Source: Sabellastarte sp. h YS-2021 (lineage: Eukaryota > Annelida > Polychaeta > Sabellida > Sabellidae). From it: a stretch of DNA of 64,000 nt. The DNA lies in assembly GCA_964017235.1 (NCBI GenBank), contig OZ024939.1, positions 42,262,241 through 42,326,240 of the forward strand, written 5' to 3'. This document shows positions 8,800-44,700 of this stretch, piece by piece. Within the stretch, counting starts at the first letter, position 1; every line of letters begins with the position of its first letter. Under the pieces are notes generated by a model that was not told the DNA's origin, did no database searches, and saw only the letters and a list, made by a program, of their open reading frames with translations. Both the position numbers and the translations under genes were made by a program.

Positions 8800-11700
8800 G
8801 TATGTGTACTGTGTCAGGGGCCAAATTCACAAAAGGGATCAAGCTCAAGTTGAGCCAAAAATCAGCTCAAGTTTAGTATAAATAGTTGTAAACCTAAGCT
8901 GATTTTTTGGCTCAACTTATGCTTGATCCATTTTGTGAATACCAGCCCAGTAAGTATGTGAGACATGTGAGCTAAACCTCTACCACTATCCTCTCATCTA
9001 CACGACTGGGGAAAGATGCTGGTCTGATATGATTGTGGATATCTGTTTCATATGCCTTCAGCCTCCCAGTGCAGATATTAAGCCACATTACATTGCAATC
9101 ATATTTTCATAAAACTCGTTTTTATTGTCACATTATTGTTTTGATTAAAATATTAAGTAACCCTTGCCCAGACCTAAATCCTTAGCACATTACTGTCAAA
9201 CTGTGAATACATGAAGTATATTTTTGCTAACACTGCAGACAGACGAGACATATGGACATACAGTGCTTGGCATGGTTATTCAATAACCTTAACATACAAC
9301 AGAGGACGAAATTGATTGTATGTAAAAAGTCTACAACCAACTAATCACATGTACATTAATTTCTGCCCATTTAGGGCACCTAACTAATCAGAAAATGTTA
9401 CTATTTCATCAAAATTGTTGTAATTGGATATAAATAAGTATGTATGCATATTTTAACAAAAAAAGTCCACATTATTAAAATGAGCTCAGAGTAAGTTAAG
9501 ACATTAAGAAAACAGTAAAAGTAAACCAACCAATATAAATATTCTTTCACAGTGTAAGTCAAAGAAAGAGCTGTAATTATTGTTGTTATCTGTAGATGAG
9601 AGAACTGTGAGTTGGAGCAGTTGTCACTCTACCCCCACCATGGAGATGATGTATGGGGCGAGTCCAGGGAGCAGCCAGGGTCCACAGTCATCATACCCAC
9701 TGCCTTACCAGGGTCAACAGCAAACCGGGTACAGGCTTCAACTTGTTTCATTTTAAATCACATATATATATGAATATATATATCAATTTTGATATATCTG
9801 AAACTGTTAAATTTCAGTTTCTTTCAAAAAAGCATTAACCACAGAAATGAGAAGAAAATCTGTCTTTAGAACTTAATATTATCGTGTTAAACAAATTGCT
9901 TTTGACATTTTATGCATCATACATACATTTTATAGCCATTCACCATAGCACTGTTCATATGTTTACAACAGATAAATAAAACTTCCAAAAGCTGCAACAA
10001 AATCGGTGTCTGTGCAGTTGAAATTTATGACTCTCCTTTAAAATGATTTGCTCTGGCAGCGTTCGTTACATTTTTTGCAAACACTACAAATATTGCCCAA
10101 AATGTCAATCCCTTTCTGTGTAAATATCAATCTTCCATTTGCATTCTCTTTCTGTTCCCGTTGTAACAAATGGCCTATATTTCAGCTTTCTCCAGTCATA
10201 TCCACACAGAGGTAGCTCAAGCAGTGACACATCAGGTCAAACTCCCAAACCAGTTAACATAGAGCAGTACCTGGCCTACACCTCACAGGAACCCTCTGGA
10301 CGGGTTCCAAGACAAAGCCGTGCTGAACGGCCGAGTTCGACATATGACCACAAAACTATACCTGCATCTGCGCCTCCATTCGAATATTATGGACAGCCAC
10401 AAGTGTATCAGCAACAAAGGTATGAGAAGCATGATATACAGCCACCAAGGGCAACTCCAGAGCATCTTTACAGGAGAAAATATGGAAGTCAGGATGAATC
10501 ATACAGACAGCCACCTCAAACTTATCAAAGAGGATCATGGGATGGCAGTAAACCATCAGAAGTGGATGAAAGGGCAAAGAAAGCCAGATGGGGGAGAGAT
10601 AGGTCACTGGATACAGTGTCTAAGAAGCGAGGAAAGAATCTGTCTGCTAGCAGTACTGACAGTTATCAGTATCCTAGTTCATCAGTACCCTGGGATGGCA
10701 GCAACCGGTTGTCTCGAGACAGCAGCATGGAGTCAGTGAAGTCAGATTCTTCTAAAGTTGTAAAAGCATCAACAGCTAATGTTTTGGCATACACACCAAG
10801 GAGAGCGAAGCCATTTGTGTGTGGGAGGGCCACAACTGTTGATATATCAATGTTGGATAGGGGCAGTCAAGGTAGTTTGAGTAGTATAGGGGATGTATCA
10901 CAACCCATTCAAGAAAACAGAGAGGCCAGCTTTGTAGCACCTTGGAGATTGAAAGACAGACCAAGTTCTCAGGTGTTTGAACCACTAGAAAATAAAGAAG
11001 CTGTTAAAAGACAGCCATTGGTTAAATCAGGTTCTTTAGATAAACCTTTACCAAGCTTAAGGACCACTCACTGTGATTCACCTGACTTGGATGAGCTTGT
11101 AGAAGCAAACATAGAAGCAGCAACGGATTCTCCAAGGACAGCAAGAAAGGCTAAAAGGGAAAAGAGGAAAGATTTGTCTAGCAGAATAAATGACAACAGG
11201 CTTTCTGAAAGATCAAAAACTAGGCCAGAATATTATGGAGAGGAGCTATCATACTGTCCTGCAGTAACGTTTCAGCCTGCATTTGAGAAACATGTGGCAC
11301 AAGTTACACAATTGGATAAAAATAAACTTAATGAACAACAGACCTTGAAACCTCCAGAGGAAGAGACACAAAACCTCTCTGATTTTGAAAAACATTTACA
11401 GGATCTCAGATCTGAATTGAAAACAACTGCTAAGACAAATAACAAAGGCAATGAAAAGAAAAACAGTATAGACATTCTTGGAGTGAAGCTAGATCAGCCT
11501 AGGACTGAAACTGTTTTCAATAGAAGAGATGAACAGGCAGCCATTGAAGCACTAAAAGATGAAAAACCAGCTTTGGCAGATTTACTGGAACGAGATCGGG
11601 AAGCTGCAACAAAGCCACCAGAATACCATGACAAAGAATTGGCTGAGAGGATTGCCAGTGAAAAGCAAAAGGAACTGAAAAGAAAACACTTGCTCTTCAA

Positions 11701-14700
11701 ATTAGGTGCCATACGAAAGGAATTGTCAAATCGAATCGGTTCAATTGATGAAAAAACACATTCGGTAAGTAGAACAAAGAAATCCAAGTCACTGACTAAG
11801 TCTAAGAGTTTGGGTGATGAAAAGATTGAGGAGAAAAAGAGACAAGAAGTCCCAGTCTCAGAGGTCCAGAGCTCCATAAGAACACAAGTGCAGCAGGAAC
11901 CTGTAGAGCAGCTGAAACTTTTAGAAGGTATACAAGAAATACGACAACATTTTCCAAATCCTGATATACTTAAAGGTAGGAATCACGCTGATTCAGCACC
12001 ACAGAAAATCAAAGATATAGACCAACAATTTCTCAGTACTCAAGAAATACCAGGAACAAAACAAGCTCCACCTAGCAAACTCGAAGATGTAGTTAGTCCA
12101 GTCCAAAAGTCTGCAGCAAGTGTCACTCCACAACAAGATACAAGGAATGTTCGACAAGATAGCAGACCCTTCTCTCCAGCTGGAAATACTACAACAAAAC
12201 CTGTAACATCTCCGCTACATATGACAACAAAAGCTTCTTCAATGCATCAACCACAGATGGGTATTAATTACAACCCTTTGATAAAATCACCATCTCCACA
12301 AGTAACAAGTGTCACAACCATTTCAACTTCAACAAGTATCTCGACAAAAGTACCCTCAACTTCTGCAGTTGTTACAGAAGCTACAACAATAACATCATCA
12401 GTGGTTAACACACAAAATGTGTCAACAACAACAACTAGCACTGTTACCACTTCACATACCACTGGGTCAAAGGCAAGTTCTGTAATCAGCAGTTCTACTA
12501 TGACAAAACCAGTAACACACTTACCAGCATCTACTTTAAGTGTATCAGATGGTTCTTTGATTCAGCGCAGAAGCAAATCGCCTGATGCAGAGACCCATGG
12601 GGCTTTGTCATTGGTGAAAGCAATACAGTCAAGGTTAACTGGTAAGAGCACTGGACGGAAATCCCCAAGACCTCCTGATGTACTATCCAAAAATGTTGAT
12701 ATTCCTGACACCAAAATGGCACAAGATGCCATTAAAGATGTCAAAATAGATGATGAAATCAATAAAGTCCCCATGCCACCTGATGCTATTCTGACCGATA
12801 TTAAAATTGACTCTAGACAAAAACCCGTCATGAGTCAAACTGAAGTTGATACAAGTGTTACTGTGGAAACAAAAAGTACAATCAAGAAGAATAATATACC
12901 AGATACCAAGGCTGATGCTGTTGATATGAAACAAGATCTCTCTCCCAAACCTGCTATTTCTCCTTCACCGTTATCATCTGTGAATTCAAATTTAGTTTAT
13001 CAAGGAACTGTGTTTAATTCAACCAAGGATTTACTTTCCCACCAGCTGCAACAAATTGCACCTTCATCCAATCTAGGGAGAATGGATTCTCCAGACTTCA
13101 AGCCAATGTCAGAAAAACTTGATCAGGCATTGGATAAGCACAGTCATCTGGATTTGTATGAACGAAAACATGCTCTTTCTTCACATAAACCAGTGGCAAA
13201 GACTCCAAAGGCACCAGAATTTGGGATATCATATTTAAAGAAAGCACCAACCACAGAGAAAATTAATGAAGATCTTGGACGATTTGATGAAGATGGTATA
13301 TATCCACAAGTAATGCTAATTGAAACACCAAAAACTGCAAACCCAACACCTTCCCCTAAAGCGCCTCGACAACCGAGTAGCAGCCAAGTAATACAGCCAA
13401 CTTTGTCATCAGAAAATGTGTTTCAATTTCCCCCTCCACATGAAAGAGAACACACCAAAGACTTTACTCAGATGGCTGAAGATCAAAACAGGCAGAAGAA
13501 AGAAGATGAAATGCGAAGAAGGGAACTTTACCGAGATGATTCGTTTGTAAGAGACTCTTCACCAGAGTACTCCCCAATCCCTCTTCCAAAGGACTCTGTC
13601 ATCTTGAGAAATAAACATCAATGCTTGGAGAGGAGAGGCTCAACCAGCTCAGAATCTGATGTGACTGTGGCCTCTCAGAGTTCCAGATCTCCCAGACTGT
13701 CACCCAGGACCATGAGAAAACAAGCACAAGCACAGAAGATGAGATCAGTTTCCAACAGAGGGTCAACTTCTTCTGGTATAGGTGGAGACCTCTTGAACAT
13801 TCCTTCTGCCAGGTAATGAACAGTGTTTCTGTCAGTTTTTAATGATTTTTGGTATGACATCTAAAGTATTGTAAAGTTGTCTCACTGGATTGGCTGGGTG
13901 CCAATTCATTCATCCATTGAACTTAGCTAAGGTGTTTACAACCTGTCCACAGTATTTCATTGCACAAATGAGATTGTACAATTGCTAATTCCTTCTAAGT
14001 TTTTACATCTTAATATACAGGGGTGTTTGTATGAGTACATTATGAATAAACACGTGTCTTACAAAAATTGTTGATGCAGGTATGCACTGCTATAGCTACT
14101 GTTTCTATTTGTTTAATTGGTTGATTGATTCATTTATTTAATCGTTTATTCATCACAGGGTTGTAAAGAGAATGGTGAACTAGTTTGCATATATAAAAAG
14201 GTGTTTTAACAACAATACTTTAACATAGATTTTGTCAACACGTCTAATATAATTTTTGATAAAATATAGCTGTAAAAACTGAGAAATAAAAGATAAAAAC
14301 TAGTCAATAAATAAACAGGGGGAAGCACTATGTTTAGAGCATAGAGACTAGAAGTAACAGTTAATTAATCGCATAGTATCATTAGTTGTTTTCTTTTCCA
14401 AGACGAGGTAGATAGTTTTGCAAACCTTCCACCAGGGACTAAACATAGTCTTAGAAACTGGGCAGAATGAATATATCTTGACATTTCCGTTTTATGGGTA
14501 TCTACTGGAAGAGTGACGCCAAATTTGACAGAAAATACCATTGTCAGAGTCGTTACTACAGTTTATAATGCAAGAGGATAATATAAAGAATAGCAGAAAG
14601 AATTCATAGTCATCAATTTCAAACTTCAGCAAGTCACAATTTGATACATTCTTTTGGGGAGTAAAATTGATTTGCGTTGTCTAAACCAGGGTCCCATGTT

Positions 14701-17700: not shown

Positions 17701-20700
17701 TCATAGAGCTATGGATAACTTCGACACACATACAGGTTTGTAACTTTTACCAGCTTTGTAGTAGTAAAAGCGGTTTGCGTTGTTTAAAGGTAATAAATGG
17801 CACCCATAAAATACACAGTAGGCTCAGTATTGGAGAGCATGAAAAACATGCAATTTTAACCACGTTTTCCCTTCATATCAGGTTTTATGCATTTTTAACT
17901 GTTTACTCAGACTTATATGTTAAAAACAAATCAAGTTTAGTGTCTGTCTCGAATTTCTAATAATTTCAATACATTAAATACATTAAACAGAAAAACGATC
18001 CTCGGTTCTTTTTGCCCTAACATTTTAGTATTTTATTCTTCTTTTTTATTATTTAACAAATAATGTGTGCTCATACAATGTATTTTCTTTAGAAATTGAA
18101 ATTTATATGGCGTCATAAAAATAATTATTTCGGGATGTTTCTCGGCGAATGGTGTTTAGGTTTAGCATTAGCGCCTCCTTTCGGTATTTGATCATAAGGT
18201 GAAGGCCATTGCGGTTGTAAACAAAAACAACTGTCAAAACAGGTGAATGTGTATGGTATGTTGAAGTGAGATATTGACAATGGATTTAAGATAAATTCTA
18301 ACAACATATATCTTGAATGTTAAATATATTGGTTTGTCTAAGGTTTAGGGCAGATTTGGCGGTTTCATATTTGCAAGTTCGATAAATAAATGTTGGTTTT
18401 TTTTTTTGTCCAGTTTTTGGATATCCTCATCCATGTACTGTACCAAAATCCGGTCCGTTTCACATTCCAGTCTGAGTGGTTTAATGTCAGATTTATGAAT
18501 GTTTGTTGTTCAAAAATGTCGATAAAGGCTTTATATCTTTTAAATGTAAATGTGAGATTTTGTGTGTTCTATTTTGTGGGACAAGTGTGTTTAAATCTGC
18601 AAATGTTAATACAAACAAAGGCTGTACAGTATGGTGATCCATTAAGTTACGAATCTGTAGTTGGATTTTTAATGGGTATATTAGAGTAAAAATACTCCTT
18701 TATCTAGCTTTATATAGACCGAGTTTCTGTCCCGTTGCGTATTGCTGTTGATATTTCTGATGGTACGCAATGGCAAGGGACAGAGCTCACATGTACCTGT
18801 TTTCTGGGTATGCATGCAAATCGCGACCAAAACGGCTCGCACCCAACAACTCGCACACACAACTCGCACCCAAAATTGAAGTATTTGCTCTTCAAACAGC
18901 ATTTTTATTTAGGGCATGGCTTGATTTCAATGGTTAAGTAAATTAATCACGTTTGTAGACGAAATGTAGACTGGTTTCCTGGATCTTCTGTTTGTAAAAT
19001 ATGGCTAGAAACCCATCGTGGCTTCATATTTCCTTATGTATAAGCTGCATTTTATTTATAAAATATTGCTAGGAAACCTATTGTTAAACTGTATATATTT
19101 TCGAATAGACGTATGTTAAATATTTAATTAAATTAATCACGTTTGCAGATGAAAAAAACTTTGTCTTGAGTGAGGTTTCAGTAACAATTTATTTCATTGG
19201 TTAATTAAATTAATCACGTTTGCAGACGAATAGTACACTGGTTGCCTGGATCTTCTGTATGTAAAATATGGCTGGAAACCCATCGTATAAGCTGCATAAT
19301 GTATCATTTATTTGTTTTGGGGGTGCGAGTTGTTTTGGTCGCGACTTGCCGGTAATTCGTTTTCTGTGTAAATCTTGAACTGTGGGGAATTATTGCATTC
19401 ACTTTAAAAAGTTATTATTATGTCTATTATAGCTGTATCTAGTTTCCAATACATATGTTGTTAAATTAAACTGCTTTTAGAAGTCAGGAAGTTTTTTGTA
19501 GATAACTATGTAATGTTGAAGGTTTGTTTACATTTTGAAAATTGGTTGAAATATATACATGCCAGTTTGACTGGCATGAAATATAAGTGAACGGCACATT
19601 TACATACCTTAAAGAAACCAAATAACACTTCATATTTGTGGTAATATGTGTACAAATATGCCGTCCAAAATTTACACAGAAAACAGGTACATGTGAACTC
19701 TGTCCCTCGCCATTGTGTCCATCAGTATATCAATAGCAATTGGCGATGGGACAGAAACTCGGTCTAAGCTTTATATAGCTTGTTAGACATGATTACCTCG
19801 GCTCTACTTTTATTGCGTGTACAGGGGGACAGTGATTCGCCCATAAAAACACCAAAATGAGAACAAATATGCAGTGTTGTTTTATAAAGTTGTCAGAATG
19901 AAAAGAGGTTCCTCAAACTGTAAAATGATAGTAGCATCATAATATATATTTTGTGATAAGTACAAATACACCCATAAGACTTGTCCCATGGCAATAAGAT
20001 TAGGGCTGTTGGAAAGTGGACAGCATTTCGCCGATTATTTTACACTGTTCCCAAAAAAGTTACAAAGACTGTTAAACACTTTGCAAACAATAAATAAAGT
20101 TAAAGATCAATTCTTCTCATTGTATTCTAGCATATGATGAAGTTAAAAATAGTATTTATATTGACCCCAGATACAGTTTAGAGAACATACAGCTCTTTGC
20201 ATCAGTCAGATGCAGTTTGTTAGGCATATTTCTCACTGACATATAAACTTTTTTATTCATCTTTATAATCCTGCATGCTGTCGATTCTAAAATCTGAGAA
20301 AAGTATCAAGACATGTTGCTATAAGGCTCCTTCAGTATCAACACAGATGTTAGTTTTAAATGAGGTACAATAGAGATTGGCGAATCGCTGTCCCCCCCCT
20401 GTAGAGCCGTGGCACGACCCCACATAAAACTGGAGATTTGCTTCAAATACAAATCCCTCCAAATGTATTCTTTGTTGTATTCTCCTTCAACATGTAAACA
20501 TAACTGAGTGAAAGACATTGGTATTTAACCATTTTCAACATTTTTTTGAAGATTTTTCCAAAATATTAAAAATGTGGTTTCACTGTAAAAGTTCCAAAAA
20601 AGTTGTCTGAATTTCTGAAATGGCTTATATATCATAATCCTGGTATCCTTACATCAAAATCAATTGATTTCAACTACATAAAGTCAAAGTTAGCCATTTA

Positions 20701-23700
20701 TCTAGTTTAATTCAACAGGAAAGTCTTTGAAGCAAATCTCCAGTTTTATGTGGGGTCGTGCCACGGCTCTACACGCAAGTTAAGTAGAGCCAAGGTAACC
20801 ACATCTAATAGCTTGTAAGTCTGAGAATCTATTCTATTTATAAAATATCATCTGTGAATTTGTAGTATTTGATCTGCAAGCAGCCATTCTTTTTAAATAT
20901 TGTTAGAAAACCTCAGGAAAATCTGTGACCTCATATTTTCTCATGAATATTAATGAGTTAGGTACTCTACTTCCAAGTTCAAGATGCAAGCACCTGTTTT
21001 ACTTACAGACTAGTGTTGGAAAACCCCAGGGAAATCTGTGACATCATATATCCTCTTAAATATCAATAAGTTTGGTGCTGTGCTTGCAAGTCCGTTCTAA
21101 AATACTCCTTTATGTTCATGAAAATTAATGAGTTGGCACTAGCTTACAAGTCAGAGAATTGTGTTCTGTTTATAAAATATTGTTAGATTAAAAAAAATCA
21201 AGTTTTGAATTTGGTTCTGAGTTACACCAATAACTTCTAACCCCTTTTTTACAGTTCCAATAAAAGTCGGATCTGTAACCACTGTGTAAACAATTTATGT
21301 AATTATAATTTTTGATATTTTTGTGGATCAATTTTAGTTTAATTTACGCTGCAATATGAATTAAATTACATTAATATATTATTTTATGAAAAATATTATA
21401 TTACAGCAGTGTAGTAGTTAAATGCTAGGTTTATAGAAGTATTCACATTACCATGAAAACTCCAATGACACAAAAACACATGACCATACAGCTTTTACAT
21501 TTCTCAAGTGAACTCCGATATAATTTCTATGTTTTTCTTGCATGTTTTCCTAGTGAAATTTGTCACAATATGAGATTTTGTGTGTGAGGCAAAGCAGTGC
21601 TTTGAAAACACTACTTTTTTATATCCATGAGGACAAATTTTGACACTTAACATTTTTTGAATCTAATTAAAACTTTATTTTGTAGAAAGTAAAGGTGAAA
21701 ACACACTTAAGGTTTCCTCATTTGATGAGAAGAGTTTTGAAAGTGTAAGTATGCTTTTGAATAAAATAAAGTGATAAAAAATATAAAAATTTATAAAGTA
21801 AATCAGACACATACTTTCCATTTTTTGAGTCATTAATAATGAATTGTAGTGTTCTTGCACGGAGGAGTTATTCTACCTAACTTGTCATATTACATTGCAA
21901 AGGCCTGTCTTAGAATTGACAACATTTAACACACTGTGGTTGTAATGGGCATTTTTATCAAATCAAAATTCAATTTAGCAGTTGGTTAAATCAGTAACTG
22001 AAATGGATGGTAAGAAAAAAAGAAAGAGGTTTGTGTATGGAGACAGTCATAATACTTGCCATTGTCTTTCAGGTTCAAATCAAATAGTGAATATAATTAA
22101 ACATTTTGTATGAAACATTTTACAGATTTTATCTATTGATATTCAGTCCTATCAGTGTCACAGTTTGTCTATTAAAGCTAAGTTTCTTTTTCGTTCAGAC
22201 CCTCGTCTTAAAAATTTTAAAAAGGTTTGAGACAAGTTTGCATTTCTGTCTTGTAGAAAAACCTACCAGATAGTCAAGCTACACCAGTAATAATCCTGCA
22301 AGCTGAACCCGTGATACATGAACTGACCTACATACCAGCACTCACTGCAGAACCAATTGTACAAGAAATCCAGTACAAACCAATTTTGTCTGCATTTGAT
22401 GCTTCACCTGCTAAAGATGAGAGCCAAAATACAGCCCTTTCTGAAGCCAATCATTTTTTATTGCATAGGAGTGCAGATTCCTCACAAGTGAAATACAAAG
22501 ATTCTAAAGATCAAGACAGCAGGCAGTACCATCCGAGACCTGCACTCCTAAAACAAAGCAATGTAGCTGAACCAAAGCCTGCAAAGGTTACAGCTCAATG
22601 TGCTAAGCCTCTGGAAACTACAGAGGAAAAGGTTCTGTCTGAAGAACCGTCTGATGAGAAATCAAGAAACATTGTGGCAAAACAGAAAGGTGAAAAGGGA
22701 CCACCATTGACTTTTGACAGGGATCAAGTTAAGTTAGAATCTGATGCTGAATTGAAAAGCAATAGAAAGGAGCTCGATTCAGCAATTGAAACTTTAGATG
22801 CTTTAACCAAGGATCTTGAAGAACGTCAGCAAAACCCCAAGGAAGTTAAACCCACAAGTGAAGTAGGTGATAAGTATAATAAGGCAGGAAAGAAACCTGT
22901 AACTGATGTAACTGCTGCACTATCTATTTTAAGACAGAATAGTCTTGCAGAGAAGCAGATTGGAGTGGATCGTGGCAGTAGAAGTATTGGCTTTCGTCCT
23001 TCACCTCTACAATTATCTAGTGTGTCATCAGGCAGTCAGGTAGCCAAAGCCTCTGAGAGTGAAATCTTGTCCCCACCAGTTGTGATAACCAGTAAAGTAG
23101 TATCTGAATCTCACGATAAAGAGAAAACACAGAGTAGGCCTAAGTCTGAAGAAAGGCCTGTGGTAATGCGAAGGGGTGGTCAAGGAGAAATATCACCTTC
23201 CAGACCAAAGTCTGTAGTAGCAGGAGCTGGACTTATTCAAAGATCAAAAGCTCAAGAAAAAGCTACAACACAAACTGTTGGTGCATGTTTTCATGCACAG
23301 CCTTCAAAAGGTTCAGATATATCAAAACAAGATAATACACTAAGCAAGACTATACCTGGAGATATCAGAAGAGAAAGTGAGACCAAGGAAAAGTTGGACT
23401 TTAAGTCATCTGGTCAAAATGTCCAGAGAGGCCAGACTTCATCACTGCAAATTTCTGACCATAAATTAACAGTTAAGGATAAACAAGAGCAGAAGTCTCC
23501 ACCAGGGCATCCAGAACCCAAGAGGCAACAGAGTAGTTATCTCAAGAAAAATATAGAAGAGCAAGTACATAAGAACCAATTAGAAAAGCAGAAACTAATA
23601 GAGGAAAAAGTTCAGGAGGAAGAACACTTAAACAGGCAGAAAGAAGAAATCCAAAAGCAACAAAAGGAAAAAAATTTGAAGATAAAGGAGAAAACACAAG

Positions 23701-26700
23701 AAAAATCAGAAGATCAAGAAAAGAAGGAACAGCATAAAGTTTTCAAACAACAGGTGGAAATACCAAACTTTCAAAAACAGGAAAAAGAAGAGACAGGTAT
23801 TCAAGCAAAGCAGAGGGAAACACAAGGGAAGCCAGACCAAGAACCCCAACAGCAGAAGGGAACTTTACATGGAGCAACTGTACAGGATCTGAAGTCTAAA
23901 CCTCTGTCAACAAATGTGAACTATGGACAAAAAATTGTAGATCCAGTCATATCAACTGAATCAGAACAGATGTTGATGCGAAAGAGTCAAGGGGCTGTAC
24001 AACCATCAAACGCCCCAGGCCCACAGCCAGCCAAATCAAAACAACCTCACAGTGATATTCAAAAACATTCAGTTAGCAAAGCCAGTGATGGGAAACCAGT
24101 GCTTGCAGCTACTGGTGAGAAAGCAAACGCAGCAGCTGTTAAAATGCAAACAGTTGGACACAAGCAAGAGTTGATATCAAAACAAGCAAATCAAGCACAA
24201 AGACCAAGTCAAAAACAACCAAGTCCTCCAAGAAAGGGTCAAGTCACACTGGGTAGTGGTACAGCAGTAAAAGATGCTAGGCAAACTCATCTTCAAAAGC
24301 AAAATGGTCCCAAAAAGCAAGCTAGTCCTCAAAGACAAGTTCAGAATGCATCTGAAAAGAGTCAGAAAATGTCAGAGGTAGCTCATACTGCCAAATATCA
24401 ACCAGGACAGCCAAGGCAGAAAAAGGGACCAAGTCCTCAAAGAACAACCAAAACCTCAACCCAAAGAGTACAGAGTTCCCCACAAAGGCAGTTGCCCAAG
24501 GTAGAAACTGTTGCCGCTGCCACGCAAAAAGGAGTAGCTCAAACATCAAAGGTAGTAGACAAAACATCATCTGCCCAATCTAGGAGATTGCAGGCTAGCC
24601 CTCAAAGGACCAGTCATGTACTACAACAGAAGGATGCTGGTAAAGGGTCTGCATCCCCTGCACAGAAGAAACCGGGAGAGAAGGTGCAGAAGACAGAAAC
24701 ACAAAAACCTGCTGCTCAAAGAACTGTGAAAAAGACAGTTACTACCACCACCACATATACAAATGCCTCAGGCCAGAAAATACAGCGTCAGTCCAGCACA
24801 ACAACTACTGAGGAAGTGACCACAAACAAGGACTCAGAGGTGACACAGAAAGGTCAAAGTGAGGCAAAGCAGAAAGGTCCTGTACAGAAAACAGCAGGGA
24901 CCCGAACCCCAGTGATTCAAATGCCTGGAGTAAATAGTACTGGTCCAGCTCAGAGAAGCACCTCACAGAAAACTGTCCAGGACACAAAGTCTGTAATGGG
25001 GAAGGATCCACAACAGCAAGATGTTTCTTCAGACACAAAAACACCACTTCCAGTGCAGAAAACACAGCTGCAGACAGGTTCTGCAGCCCAGGCTAAGCAG
25101 TCACCAAATCAGCTAACTTCAAAAAAGGAAGATCCAGCTTCATACACTGCTGAAACAGGTGCAGGAAAGATGATGAAAAAACAAAGTGTTACATCATCAC
25201 TTGATGCAACTGCCCAGAGACCTCCTTGGAAGGAGAAAAGATCAATAGAAGCAACTTCAGTGACTCAGACCACTGGGAAGGGCCAGATAGTTCAGCAAGA
25301 GAAAGATACAAAGATACAGAGTAATCAGGCACAAATTCAACAGAACTCTCAGAAAGAACACACAGCTGAAACAATCAGTTCTGGTGTTAGGGTGCAGCAG
25401 AAAACACCTACAGCAACAAAGACTGGAAAGTTGCAAGGTCAAAAGACACCATCGAAAGGTCGGTCTGTGATAGGGACACAACAGCATGGTGCTCAGTTTG
25501 GTACATTTGGATTGCAGTTCACTGTGAATAAAAAGCCGGCTGTTGGTGACAAGAAGCTAGAGACTCAAACTCCTGTTTCACCTCAAAAACCAATCCTGGA
25601 TCAAAGTATGAAGAGCAAATTTAATGAAAATCAAGAAAAACAAGATTCTGTCCTTCTTAAAATGTCACCAGCCCAACAGTCCTCAGGTACACCCAAAGAG
25701 ACACCAGGAGCACATCCAGAGGTCAAAACCACTGAAGATAATAAGATAGCTTTATCACCAGTCCAGACTGATCCTATACTGATAGAAACTAGCTCAGTGT
25801 TGTCAGTCAACAAGGCCAAAGTGCCACATGAAACCCACTTCCCAGCTACGGACATTGAACAGAACGATCCTCATGATCAAGGTCAGTGGGAGAAGGGTTC
25901 CGAAGGTGTTCAGGAAGGGAAAGGAAAAGCTCCTCCAGATGGATCAGATACCATAGTAAGTCACACTACTAGTTGGTCATTAAATTCTGTATTTAATTGG
26001 AATTTATTGGATTTAATAGTTGACTAACCTTTGTATGTTGCATGAAATGGCTTAGACTTGTAGATATCACATGAGACACTTTGTGAATGGTTAATTTTTT
26101 AAAGTATCCAAGGACATATGAAGCACTCTAAACGTTGTGCTTTGAGCTGAATTAAAAATGAACTGCAGTTTTATAAATAGCAGCAGCGGCCAAAACTTTT
26201 CCTCTCCTAAGTTAAAAGTAGAAATATTCCAGCTTGAAATAGATCTTCACAGAAGTTGTATTATAAAGTGATTCAAAAACCTGACAGGAAAGGAAAAAAT
26301 TATCTGAAATAATGAATTTCTTTAATCTGTCTGTGAATCAACATAAACAAATGCCTGACAAATATAAACACAAAATATATGAAATCAGACAGAAAAAAAT
26401 TAAAAAAAAATAGTTGACTGCTTCAGCAAAAAAAAAAAAAAAATCCCAATAAACGATTGTATATGAGAAGATGAACATATGTTTGTAAGTTATTATTAAT
26501 GTTTAAGCATAACTGTAATCAATAGTGACTTTGAGAAGCATAATATGTTTACATGTACAGGCATATGTACTGTAGGGAGTTGTATTGGAACTGTTTAAGA
26601 ATGGAAATCTATTATGTAAATATTCAATCATCAAAATGTCCTGATTGTGGATTCTAGTAATTAAAATACATACCAATGGCTGAAGATATTCTTGAAGAAA

Positions 26701-35700: not shown

Positions 35701-38700
35701 TCCTTTGGGCCCTGTTCAGAATACTGCCCGGTTATTTATTGTCTCATTTAAAGCAGAACAACTCCAGATAGAATGAGAAGAAAGTGACAGAAAGTAATGC
35801 ATTTTTTTAGTTTAAGTGGAAGTTAGCCCTAACTAGAACCATTTCCCGTGGATAATGAAGGTTATAGTTATGCACAGTCCACTCTATGCCCAAGTCTTAA
35901 GGCTCAATTTTTTCCTTTTGTTGTATTACTTCTGTGAGAGATTACAATGTAGGCTGAGCTCATTTCCTGTATGAGTATACAAGTCTTTATGAGAAGCAGC
36001 ATAACCCGTGGATTGGTCTTTGTAGGCCAACAATTGACTTATCTCAGTCTTCCTCAGTCACCGACAGTCTTGCCACTATGGTAGATCCTCTTACATTAAC
36101 ATTTACCATGATTCTTTGTGTTTCCATTGTATAATCGTATACAGTTCAGCTTAAATCGCAGCAGTAGTATAACAATGTGGTAACAAATCATTAAGGGAGA
36201 CCACGTGACAACATTTTCCCACCCAATTTCGATGAACAATAAAGACTTGCGTGTGGCTAGCCTCTGTTTACTGTCAGTATTGTCATAGTGTAGTCTTGTA
36301 TGTGGGACCTGGGCGTTATATATTTTACAGAATACAATTTCTTCCTGGGTAAAACTTATTTTATACATGGTCACAAACAAGTATTCATTGTTTCAAAATG
36401 CTTTCCTAATATGGAAAACACAAGAGAACAGACACTTTACAACAAGTGAGACTTTTTTTGAAATTAGCGAGATAAGCATTTCAAAGAACCTATTATTATT
36501 GTCCTGAAAGAAACTCTGCTAGAAATGAATGAACAAGGCTTGTCACAATGTTACCGCATTGACAGTAAGCCAGGGGTTTGGTTTTTTTTAAAAAAAAACA
36601 CCATTCAAGATTTCAGTTTGTTTGGAAGGCTGTTTTTGAGCTTTTTAAAGTTTTCATTCTAAATAAATTTGTGGTTTACGACCAAGTGAGAATGTATAAT
36701 GTCATCTGATACAAATCCAAATTTAGGAAGAGCCAGTTTTTGTGGTCACACTAACAGAAAGTAATTATTTTTTTTAGTTTTAAGTGGAAGTTAGCCGTAA
36801 CTAGAACCTTTTCCCATGGATAATGAAGGTTATAGTTATGCACAGTCCACTCTATGCCCAAGTCTTAAGACTCAATTTTTCCTTTTGTTGTATTACTTAT
36901 GTGAGAGATTACAATCTAGGCTGAGCTCATTTCCTGTTGTACCAGTTTGTTTTAGCCTATTTAACATAGACAGTAAGTACACCCAACTTTAAAAGCTTGT
37001 GAACTCTACCACTGAGCAAACATCCTGATTTTTTGTGATTTATCGGATGTTATTGTGAAATGTGTCACTCTGTTGTGACATTTTAAAAGCAATTTGTTAA
37101 TTTGTTGCAGAATTTCAGTGAATTTTGCCTTCTTGTTGTCAAATAATTCAATGGTCAGGCCCTTGTGGCGAATTTCTCATGTTGAGGCAGATTTCACAAT
37201 GCTTACAACAATTGCGTTTACTGTAAGAATCTCTGCCTTTGTGGAATGTAAAAAGATTCATTAAATCCTGTTGCAAAAAAATGTCAGACAAACAAGGTAA
37301 AAAATAGTGGTAGCCAAAGTATTAAGAAAAACTATTGTATATTAAACACACCAAATTACCACCACAGTTGAACCTCTTTATATGGAACTCTGTGTATATG
37401 CTTCTTAAATCAAAATAAATATCGGCCCCCTAAGGAACTTTTCCAATGATATTTACCCTGGTATCTAGAGTTCCAGGTTAAGTAGCTGTGTTTTTCCAAT
37501 GATATTTACCCTGATATCTAGAGTTCCAGGTTAAGTAGCTGTATTTTTCCAATGATATTTACACTGATATCGAGAGTTCCAGGTTAAGTAGCTGTGTTTT
37601 TCCAATGATATTTACCCTGATATCTAGAGTTCCAGGTTAAGTAGCTGTGTTTTTCCAGTGATATGTACCCTGATATCTAGAGTTCCAGGTTAAGTAGCTG
37701 TGCTTTCCAATGATATTTACCCTGATATCCAGAGTTCCAGGTTAAGTAGCAGGTTAAGTAGCTGTGTTTTTCCAATGATATTTACCCTGATATCTAGAGT
37801 TCCAGGTTAAGTAGCTGTGCTTTCCAATGATATTTACCCTGATATCCAGAGTTCCAGGTTAAGTAGCTGTGTTTTTCGAATGATATTTACCCTGATATCT
37901 AAAGTTCCTGGTTAAGTAGCTGTGCTTTCCAATGATATTTACCCTGATATCTGGAGTTCCTGGTTAAGTAGCTGTGCTTTTCCAATGATATGTACTCTGG
38001 TATCTAGAGTTCCAGGTTAAGTAGCTGTGTTTTTCCAGTGATATGTATCCTGATGTCTAGAGTTCCAGGTTAAGTAGCTGTGTTTTTCCAATGATATGTA
38101 CCCTGATGTCTAGAGTTCCAGGTTAAGTACCTGTGTTTTTCCAATGATATTTACCCTGATATCTAGAGTTCCAGGTTAAGTTGGTGTGCTTTCCAATGAT
38201 ATTTACCCTGATAGAGTTCCAGGGTTTTTTTCCAATGATAGCAGTGTTTTTTTTCCAATGATATTAACCCTGATATTTAGAGTTCCAGGTAAGTAGAAGT
38301 ATTTTGCTGTTTTGTTGAGATTCAAATTTATTTAAGAAGTTGCAGTTCTTGGTTTGTCTTGAATATATCTCAGTGAATGACACACTCTACATTTGAAACA
38401 AGATACTTGTTTGATCATCTCTATGAAATCTCCTTATTTGATGAAAGCTACATAAGAAATGTTACGAGTCAAATTTCCTGGCTGTCAGATTCAACAAGGG
38501 CTGATTATTTGGGGACTGATGTGTCATAGAAAAAACTAGAATAGTCTATCAGAATAGACAAGGCTTATTTGATCTCATTTTATTATGATGTACTTTATGA
38601 CTGGGTTGGGTATTTATAAAATGTGAAATAAGTGGTTAGGTTAATATCAAAATTACACGGATGTCAATGTAAGTGGATGGAATATCAGTATTGTATAGAA

Positions 38701-41700: not shown

Positions 41701-44700
41701 GTGACTCCATCACAGATGACTCCAGATAGGTTAGGAAAACCTCATTGACCCAGTGGTCATCAACTCAGTTGGCTTTGAATTCATCTCATAGCAAAATGTT
41801 GCATACACCAAATTCTAATTCAAATTTAATCTTTGCCGTTGAAAGGCAACTAGATTTGGTGTCTGTAAGTAAATGGTTTGAGTGATGGAATTTAGTCACT
41901 AAAGTCACTGGAGTCAGTCTGTCCGTAAAAAAAACATTTATCTTATGAGTTACCGATTCAGATTAGCCTACCCTCCAAACATTTATGTTATGACTTACCT
42001 ATTCAGGTTAGCCTACCCTCCAAACATTTATGTTATGACTTACCTATTCAGGTTAGCCTACCCTCCAAACATTTGTGTTATGACTTACCTATTCAGGTTA
42101 GCCTACCCTCCAGATATTTATATTATGACTTACCTATTCAGGTTAGCTTACCCTCCAGACATTTATGTTATGACTTACCTATTCAGGTTAGCCTACCCTC
42201 GAAACATTTATGTTATGACTTACATTTCAGGTTAGCCTACCCTCCAAACATTTATGTTATGACTTACCTATTCAGGTTAGCCTACCCTCCAAACATTTGT
42301 GTTATGACTTACCTATTCAGGTTAGCCTACCCTCCAGACATTTATGTTATGACTTACTTATTCAGGTTAGCCTACCCTCCAAACATTTATGTTATGACTT
42401 ACCTATTCAGTTCAGCCTACCCTCCAAACATTTATGGTATAACTTACCCATTTAGGTTAGCCTACCCCCCACCATAGTCTTTCTTCCCTATTGGATGCTA
42501 ACATGGACACAGACTTCCTTCCGTAAATTTGAGTATCCCTTCTTGGACATCAACACCTTAGAGGGTGACTTCATCAATTTGGCACTATTTAAAGCTTCAT
42601 ACTTAATAAGTAATAATGAGGAACATCAGTACAGTTACAGAACCACCTGTATTATTATAACTTCTATTTTTGGAATGTTTGATTTTGTAATCATGTTTCC
42701 ATGCTCCAAAATTTATAATTTTTTTCACTGTTTTAGATAAAAGTGAAGTCTCTCCCATGTAATGAACTGTTATATGATCAGTGTGTTTGGATAATAAAGG
42801 TTTTTATGGCCAGTCACCATTTTAATCCTTGGCCGCTGGAATATATGTTGTATGTAGTGTGTATTGGTGTGGTGTGTATTGAGTGACACCAAAGTCACAA
42901 TTTATACCATGTAACAACAATTGATAAAAGTAGAGACTTGGTTAAAGAAAAAAATTGAATGATATTGGGCTCGTCATCACCTAACAATTGTAACAGTAGA
43001 TCCAACACAGTGATCAGCTTGTCTACGCCAAAGAAAGTCATGCCTTGTGTGAGATCTGGAGAATGAAATAAGTAAAATTGGTCTTGTAGAAAACTAGTTT
43101 TGTCAGTTATTATGTTAATTGCTGGTGACAGATATATGTATATGTACAGAGAGGACCTGTACCTTGTGGATTTCTATTCATCACTGCTAACATACGCCTG
43201 AAAAGAAAAGGTCTCACAGGAATATATGTATATATCATATATGAGGAGGTTTTAAGTCAGTTTTTAAGACATGAAACGGAAGATTGCCCTGCCAAGGTAA
43301 TACAAAAACCTCGACAAGATTCTGCGTAGAATCATTTCCTTGTCTGACTTGTTGTTTCTGAGGTTTCTGCTCAACCTGTTATGCAGATAGTTGAGCCATT
43401 TCAGTCAGGATCTAATGCTTTTTCTGTAATATTTTGAAGTATAGCTTGTGTAATTGTCATAATTTATTGGAAGCAAAATAATTCAGTGAGTAATCTGAAG
43501 TTTTAGTAAGAGTAGAAGAGATAGTGAAATATTTCAGATATTTTGTTTAGATTAATTTTGGATAACACTTACAACGTTGGTGACATTTAAATGTTGAAAT
43601 AGGATCAGCAATATTACTACATACATTTTGTTGAATTAAAAGTGGTGGATGAACATCAAAACTTCCATGACTAGGATATGAGGATGAGCCTTTCAATATA
43701 GAAGGTTTATACGGGTAAGTTTTAAAAGACAGGTCATTATAAGGATATTGATTTCTACTTAAAGGGGGTATCATTGTAGTGATTAGACTTCTACATTAAG
43801 GGCTCTGTCTAATACATGTGTAGAGGGTGGAGTCTGTGTACATAGAACCAGTGGCAGTCACGTCCAGGTATGACTAGAACCATACATTGAGGTGGCACTG
43901 AGAATATGCAGTGTTTGTGTAGGTAGAAATAGAAGCTAGGTATACTGAAAAAAAACTAAACAAATCCAGTGGATGTTGGAGGATCTGTCCGATGATGTGA
44001 AAGGGACGATATAAGTCAGCTGAAAAGGCAGGATTTGGACAATGATTAATTGATTACATCATTTTACAGTCATATATTCAAGTGAATTGTCCAGGATAGA
44101 GTGTTTCGTTTTGAGAAATATTGCAGCGAGTTCATTGAGTGGAAGTCAGCATGATGAGGTTTAAACAGAATATTCGTGTTTAAATGTTACTATCTGAATG
44201 TTTTATTTTATGCAGGGATGGAGATGTGAAGAGAAGAAAACCGCGATTAGAGAAGTCAGAAAACCTGGTGGATGAAGAACTACAGAAGATACTCAACAGG
44301 AGGTGAGAAGCTAATCAACACCTTTCTGAAACCTGTTTTATTTTCGAAAGATCAGAAAACAAATTCATACCTGATGAATCTACTGCTTTGCAGGCACAAT
44401 ATCTTCCCTACAATAGGAACTAAGTGTGCTATGAAGACTGTTCCATTTCTGCCATATGTTGTAAACCTTGCTCCGTTTCCCCAATATACTGGGATGGGGA
44501 GGTAGATCTTTTCAATTGTAATAATGTTAAAGTCATCGTACAGAGAGGCTGTATGGAATATACAGAATTTCTGATTGGTTTACGAGTACAGCACTCGGGA
44601 GACCATTGGGAACAGTTAACAAGAAATTCAAACTGTTTGAAATTGTTGTAAACTTTCCTTATCAGATTTATAACATCATAAACCCATCGCATTATCATCT

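Follow-up and report, generated by a model that had tools for sequence, protein, structure and literature searches.

Two mini-transposons, here termed E1 and E2, stand side by side in a stretch of 64,000 nucleotides from the annelid Sabellastarte sp. h YS-2021, hereafter referred to as the window, which lies on contig C20 of the assembly. E1 spans 18715-19766 and is flanked by an exact 9-bp duplication, AGCTTTATA, at 18706-18714 and 19767-19775, and E2 spans 19784-20807 between exact 9-bp copies of ATAGCTTGT at 19775-19783 and 20808-20816. These bounds and duplications, proposed in a first-pass annotation of the window, proved exact to the base, as did its proposal that the two targets overlap by one base, 19775, which is common to both duplications. 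The facing ends of E1 and E2 are thus 17 bp apart, and the undisturbed target before both insertions would read AGCTTTATATAGCTTGT. The same annotation had both elements starting with TAGAC, which holds for three of the four ends, the right end of E2 reading TAGAT. Long imperfect inverted arms are present in both, as described there: the E1 left terminal repeat (18715-18809, plus strand) contains an internal palindrome and is interrupted by a nested insertion, its right counterpart lies at 19661-19766 (minus strand), and the E2 right terminal repeat occupies 20726-20807 (minus strand). Both elements are non-autonomous, and the absence of an encoded transposase was borne out, as no open reading frame (ATG, GTG or TTG starts) longer than 73 aa overlaps E1 or E2; one frame of 99 aa stops before E1. 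We read the window pair as one neighbour insertion.

Overlooked in the first-pass annotation was that both window copies are enlarged by a nested insertion, and that they measure about 492 bp (E1) and 442 bp (E2) without it. The insertion in E1 (about 549 bp, 18810-19358) carries its own inverted arms at 18816-18844 and 19321-19349 and is flanked by GTTTTCTG(G/T)GT with one mismatch. A 493-bp E1 copy elsewhere in the genome (L055) aligns to the left 96 bases of the window E1 and then, after the intervening 549 bp or so, with its own bases 83-493. The 580-bp insertion in E2 (19822-20401) is a high-copy repeat that sits in the left terminal repeat, with TA duplicated at 19820-19821 and 20402-20403. 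A search with the whole query gave 6,385 first-look candidates for this repeat (about 580-600 bp, CAGGGGGACAG..., TA duplication), which was seen at L004-L008 and is also found in the E2 copies L003, at the same TA as in the window, and L002, at another TA, such that the E2 terminal repeat has been hit at two different TAs across three E2 copies.

Both elements are members of high-copy mini-transposon families, as became clear from searching the 1.786 Gb of the genome (647 contigs). A pattern of 19 bases for the E1 end, allowing up to two mismatches, matched 3,939 times (1,944 forward and 1,995 reverse), against nine matches (1 + 8) for the reversed-pattern control, and copies end at the termini that had been named. 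The right part of E2 yielded 1,575 first-look candidates, 40 of which were scored. The terminal inverted repeats measure about 104 bp in E1 and 76-82 bp in E2; beyond TAGAC their ends are little alike, and each of the two terminal repeats that were folded contains a palindrome. For 22 E1 elements at 20 loci, picked for exact ends facing each other, the duplication is a perfect 9 bp in 18 cases, 8/9 in two, and a perfect 8 bp and a perfect 10 bp in one case each. Both ends of E2 were available at 16 of 20 loci, with three perfect 9-bp duplications, five at 8/9, one perfect 8-bp duplication, three at 7/9 and four at 6/9 or less; two more perfect duplications come from L002 and L003. As such, E2 copies look older than E1 copies, with the caveat that the E1 copies were preselected for exact ends. 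Palindrome-like E2 copies of only 63-74 bp were also seen (L104:17-90, L108:595-657 and L109:596-664), the first with near-identical target duplications on both sides. At L072:100-979, one E1 copy has inserted into another E1, inside the first dozen bases of the latter (target ACCGAGTTT). Furthermore, two E2 ends (C7:84139500-84139557 and L095:740-770) have a nearly identical short flank, CGGCCA[AG]CTTATGACTGCGGC, a hint that E2 inserted into copies of a different repeat.

Genome-wide, ends that face each other at a distance of 0-30 bp were found at 43 sites, namely 10 E1-E1, 26 E1-E2 (window included) and 7 E2-E2, the E1-E1 count coming from a strict pattern and the E1-E2 count from a looser one; the reversed-pattern controls gave none for any of the three pairings. 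Not all of these sites are independent, since two of the ten E1-E1 sites are copies of one junction and three of the 26 E1-E2 sites lie in one train of elements. Independent placement predicts about 0.07 E1-E1 sites and 0.3-0.8 E1-E2 sites, the latter including chance matches to the short pattern and being rough, as the number of E2 ends is known only as first-look candidates. The spacing is exactly 9 bp at 3/10 E1-E1, 10/26 E1-E2 and 2/7 E2-E2 sites, or 15/43 in all, which compared with an even spread over the 31 spacings corresponds to P = 2.7e-12, with the same reservation on independence. For E1-E2 alone, the Poisson probability is 3e-13 relative to the rate at 40-70 bp, and 3e-10 relative to the other 30 spacings.

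At four loci, one 9-mer is present in three copies around two elements; the window pair does not have this arrangement. L082 reads CCGTTGGTG-E1-CCGTTGGTG-E1-CCGTTGGTG, and because its two E1 copies are only 74% identical, it is not a tandem duplication. Likewise, ACAAACCAG occurs three times around two E1 copies at L075, and GGAATTCCA three times around an E1 and an E2 at L102. A further train, at L098, consists of E1, E2 (111 bp), E1 and E2 on GCAGGGGCC and the overlapping GGGCCGAGT, with the far end of the first E1 out of view. At L104, a 74-bp E2, an E1 and an E2, the far end of the last being out of view, are arranged around GGACCACCC, one copy of which is mismatched. Both families are thus mixed within a single train at L098, L102 and L104. 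The targets at L077 overlap by one base, as they do in the window, but are 10 bp long. We read these trains as successive insertions.

From repeated insertion at one spot, the first-pass annotation had suggested a target preference. Such a preference was indeed found, but outside the 9 bp. In 74 half-sites from 26 E1 and 11 E2 insertions, window included, position -4 is not C (P 4e-5), -3 is C or T (P = 9.5e-15) and -2 is A or T (P 0.001), on both sides of the duplication, with no clear signal inside it. C occupies -3 in 26/52 E1 half-sites and 12/22 E2 half-sites. The outward-read end of both E1 and E2 is TCTA, which itself fits the preferred flank; when the five half-sites reading TCTA are left out, the preference at -3 persists (P = 3.4e-12), and it is present in E1 and E2 separately. 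Among eight further half-sites outside the main set, C is found at -3 in six (P 5e-4), and C or T in all eight.

So which enzyme could be responsible? The first-pass annotation had pointed to a Mutator-like system, and this type is supported by the commonness of Mutator-like element (MULE) domains in the genome, where the Pfam MULE model gave 633 candidates and 150 scored matches, all above cut-off. We read 12 MULE loci as stretches, several of which do not reach both ends, as well as the flanks of three further MULE genes. One of these MULEs, L088, has 88-bp inverted ends and a 9-bp duplication, TTATTATTT. At another, L095, a 76-bp E2 terminal repeat (identity to E2 copies 93-96%) lies directly upstream of a 604-aa MULE frame, which in Pfam matches ZSWIM1-3 RNaseH-like best (112 bits) and MULE with 63.6 bits, and which is 37-62% identical to most other MULE frames read. 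Between this repeat and the frame there is only a young repeat and a short TATA-like stretch resembling the paralogue L110. The young repeat (L095:858-1248, 391 bp) has an 8-bp duplication, TTTATAAG, and is abundant, 39 further scored copies being 95-98% identical; judging by the size of its duplication, we take it to be hAT-like. The idea that the stretch from E2 repeat to frame is the interior of one element was rejected on account of this separate repeat. In an alignment by eye, similarity to E2 reaches the inner border of the terminal repeat and no further, and it is there that the gene-flank similarity to L110 starts. The first-pass annotation had called for a transposase gene flanked by the same termini, and what L095 offers is the E2 repeat on one side of such a gene.

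With blastn, none of the 11 other MULE stretches (L085-L094 and L096) matched the reference copies of E1 or E2; some terminate in unrelated repeats and others have no visible inverted ends. Two MULEs (L086:1290-3249 and L087:1455-3811) have terminal repeats made of tandem units (GGACGTTTCGG.. and GAACTTTGCCCTTCA.., respectively), and about two dozen equal-score (48.9 bits) matches to the L086 MULE suggest recent activity. A MULE at C1:55769435 was considered as the E1 transposase gene and rejected, as the E1 end there is that of an adjacent E1 copy that faces away. No E1 transposase was found in the 12 stretches and the flanks of the three further genes, out of 150 scored matches genome-wide. 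Duplications of 8-11 bp, often 9 bp, are what is expected of MULEs, and were found for both families, more weakly in older E2 copies; E1 and E2 also share the long terminal inverted repeats. As for a MULE-type transposase inside an element with matching ends, the loci read show the left end alone for E2 (L095), and none for E1. Foldback-type elements have terminal repeats of tandem subrepeats that fold back, and no such tandem units were found in the arms of the window copies. MULE membership is likely for E2 and suggested by analogy for E1, though not proven.

Putting these results together, the explanation that we regard as probable combines a MULE transposase acting in trans, a 9-bp stagger, a half-site common to both families, and a target re-made by the element’s own tip. 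E1 and E2 are gene-less elements resembling miniature inverted-repeat transposable elements, most likely moved by host MULE transposases that make a 9-bp staggered cut and would read the half-site outside these 9 bp. Because each element ends in TCTA when read outwards, its tip would itself act as a half-site next to the duplicated 9 bp, and the insertion may therefore re-make its own target. The next insertion, even one by the other family, could then use the same 9-mer or one that overlaps it. The full form of this idea, in which the preferred half-site matches the outward TCTA terminus, the entire landing site is rebuilt each time and families sharing the code build mixed trains, we put forward more tentatively, as possible rather than probable.

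Several observations weigh against this explanation, and the first group concerns the enzyme. Mobilisation in trans is an inference, as among the MULE loci read none was found to have E1 or E2 termini at both of its ends. At L095, no inverted copy of the E2 repeat was found in the 7.3 kb searched downstream, and its closest relative, with a protein identity of 92% and 75% in two segments, does not have the E2 repeat. A pattern search for further repeat-TATA junctions returned one match, C6:75320702, which has no MULE match and was rejected as a chance match. Moreover, the clean duplication is often missing in older E2 copies (7/16 at 7/9 or less). It could be, then, that the elements belong to another cut-and-paste superfamily making 8-10-bp duplications, the E2 repeat at L095 being a truncated E2 copy that happened to land there. 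The one-sidedness of that link, and the fact that an E1 end flanks none of the MULEs read, speak for this. Nonetheless, we consider it unlikely, as 9-bp duplications together with long, palindrome-bearing repeats are also those of the MULE L088, and as the break in similarity at L095 falls precisely where the L110-like gene flank begins.

A second group concerns the re-use of one site. E1-E2 ends 40-70 bp apart, taken as a control, occur at eight places (in one of them, the E2 end is also that of a 0-30-bp site), far above independent placement, and general clustering therefore exists too. The 17 bp between E1 and E2 in the window may reflect such clustering as much as re-use of one site, and of the four half-sites in the window, the E1 left one fits the preference only partly, with C at -2. 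Spacings of 2-8 bp (8/26 E1-E2 sites) lack an explanation, the far flanks at L108 and L109, the two such sites read, do not have the duplication expected for a target overlapping the E1 end, and C or T at -3 goes together with A or T at -2 in just five of the eight half-sites outside the main set. If both families independently favoured the same open or receptive regions, with the half-site of little weight in re-use, the clustering and the 17-bp spacing of the window pair would be accounted for. Conversely, such hotspots would not be expected to place 10/26 E1-E2 sites at one spacing, nor to leave an identical 9-mer in three copies at the train loci, and with the 9-bp class standing well above general clustering, we find it rather unlikely that hotspots are the whole answer.

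A different objection comes from tethering, which predicts much the same trains as the self-made target does: transposase bound to resident ends would capture an incoming element and direct it into the adjacent duplication, with target sequence playing a minor part. The re-use of the exact duplication beside a resident end at L075, L082, L102 and L098 is in line with this, and so are the mixed E1/E2 trains. However, the half-site is seen at solitary insertions as well, and given the scant likeness between E1 and E2 ends beyond TAGAC, the same bound enzyme would need to act on both, which makes tethering in our opinion quite unlikely. Finally, that trains arose when repeats underwent unequal exchange or template switching with each other, as one E1-E1 junction copied to a second place would allow (L083 and L084, 98% identical over 484 bp), is highly improbable, since neighbours in a train are different copies (such as the 74% pair in L082) or even different families, yet share identical 9-mers.

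How, then, do these elements relate to known systems? MULE duplications of 8-11 bp and long repeats have been reported (PMC6446971), and E1 and E2 resemble the non-autonomous Mutator-like elements treated there in their 9-bp duplications, long inverted repeats, lack of a transposase and many copies in a genome with MULE genes. They differ in that no complete autonomous element has been identified for them, and in a preference located outside the 9 bp. The maize Mu target consensus, SW::SWNNNNNWS::WS (PMC2774946), is likewise a weak preference, palindromic about a 9-bp duplication; the signal of E1 and E2 differs in lying at -4 to -2 outside, with none clear inside the duplication. In animals, Muta1 of Aedes aegypti, a MULE with 8-9-bp duplications (PMC5225508), and Tm1, a Mutator/Foldback element of root-knot nematodes with 8-10-bp duplications (PMC3169594), share with E1 and E2 the many non-autonomous derivatives and structured terminal repeats; both are reported to have little or no target preference, in contrast to the preference of E1 and E2.

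Arrays of MULEs are also not without precedent. The SaTar elements of guayule and rice are arranged end to end at microsatellites, where members that do not target microsatellites are not arrayed (PMC5907723). These too are arrays of unrelated non-autonomous MULEs, but the spacers in the trains described here are 9-mers and for the most part no simple repeats. In Drosophila, a second element of the same type inserts into the duplicated target (review PMC12628747, citing McGurk and Barbash 2018), as appears to have happened here, with the difference that the elements of one train come from two alternating sequence families (L098, L102 and L104). As such, same-site double insertion and MULE arrays at microsatellites are already known, and what sets E1 and E2 apart is that trains on 9-mers can mix families, and that the elements' tip echoes the half-site. 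A literature search brought up no description of MULE trains in which families are mixed on unique 9-mers, although this does not prove that none exists. If our explanation is true, a simple half-site common to two families and echoed in their tips would let mixed mini-transposon arrays grow at one locus, and such arrays could be a seed of satellite-like repeats. The 9-bp spacing peak is a sharp prediction in this respect, checkable in any assembly.

As for the surroundings of the pair, E1 and E2 are straddled by two open frames on the plus strand, 10124-13813 (1,230 residues) and 22257-26024 (1,256 residues), and probably lie inside an intron of a single large gene. Neither of these frames has a Pfam match, nor do the longest four frames next to the elements. 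Elsewhere in the window, there are minisatellite arrays at 2312-2825 (55-bp unit), 37439-38213 (53-bp unit) and 41932-42471 (45-bp unit).

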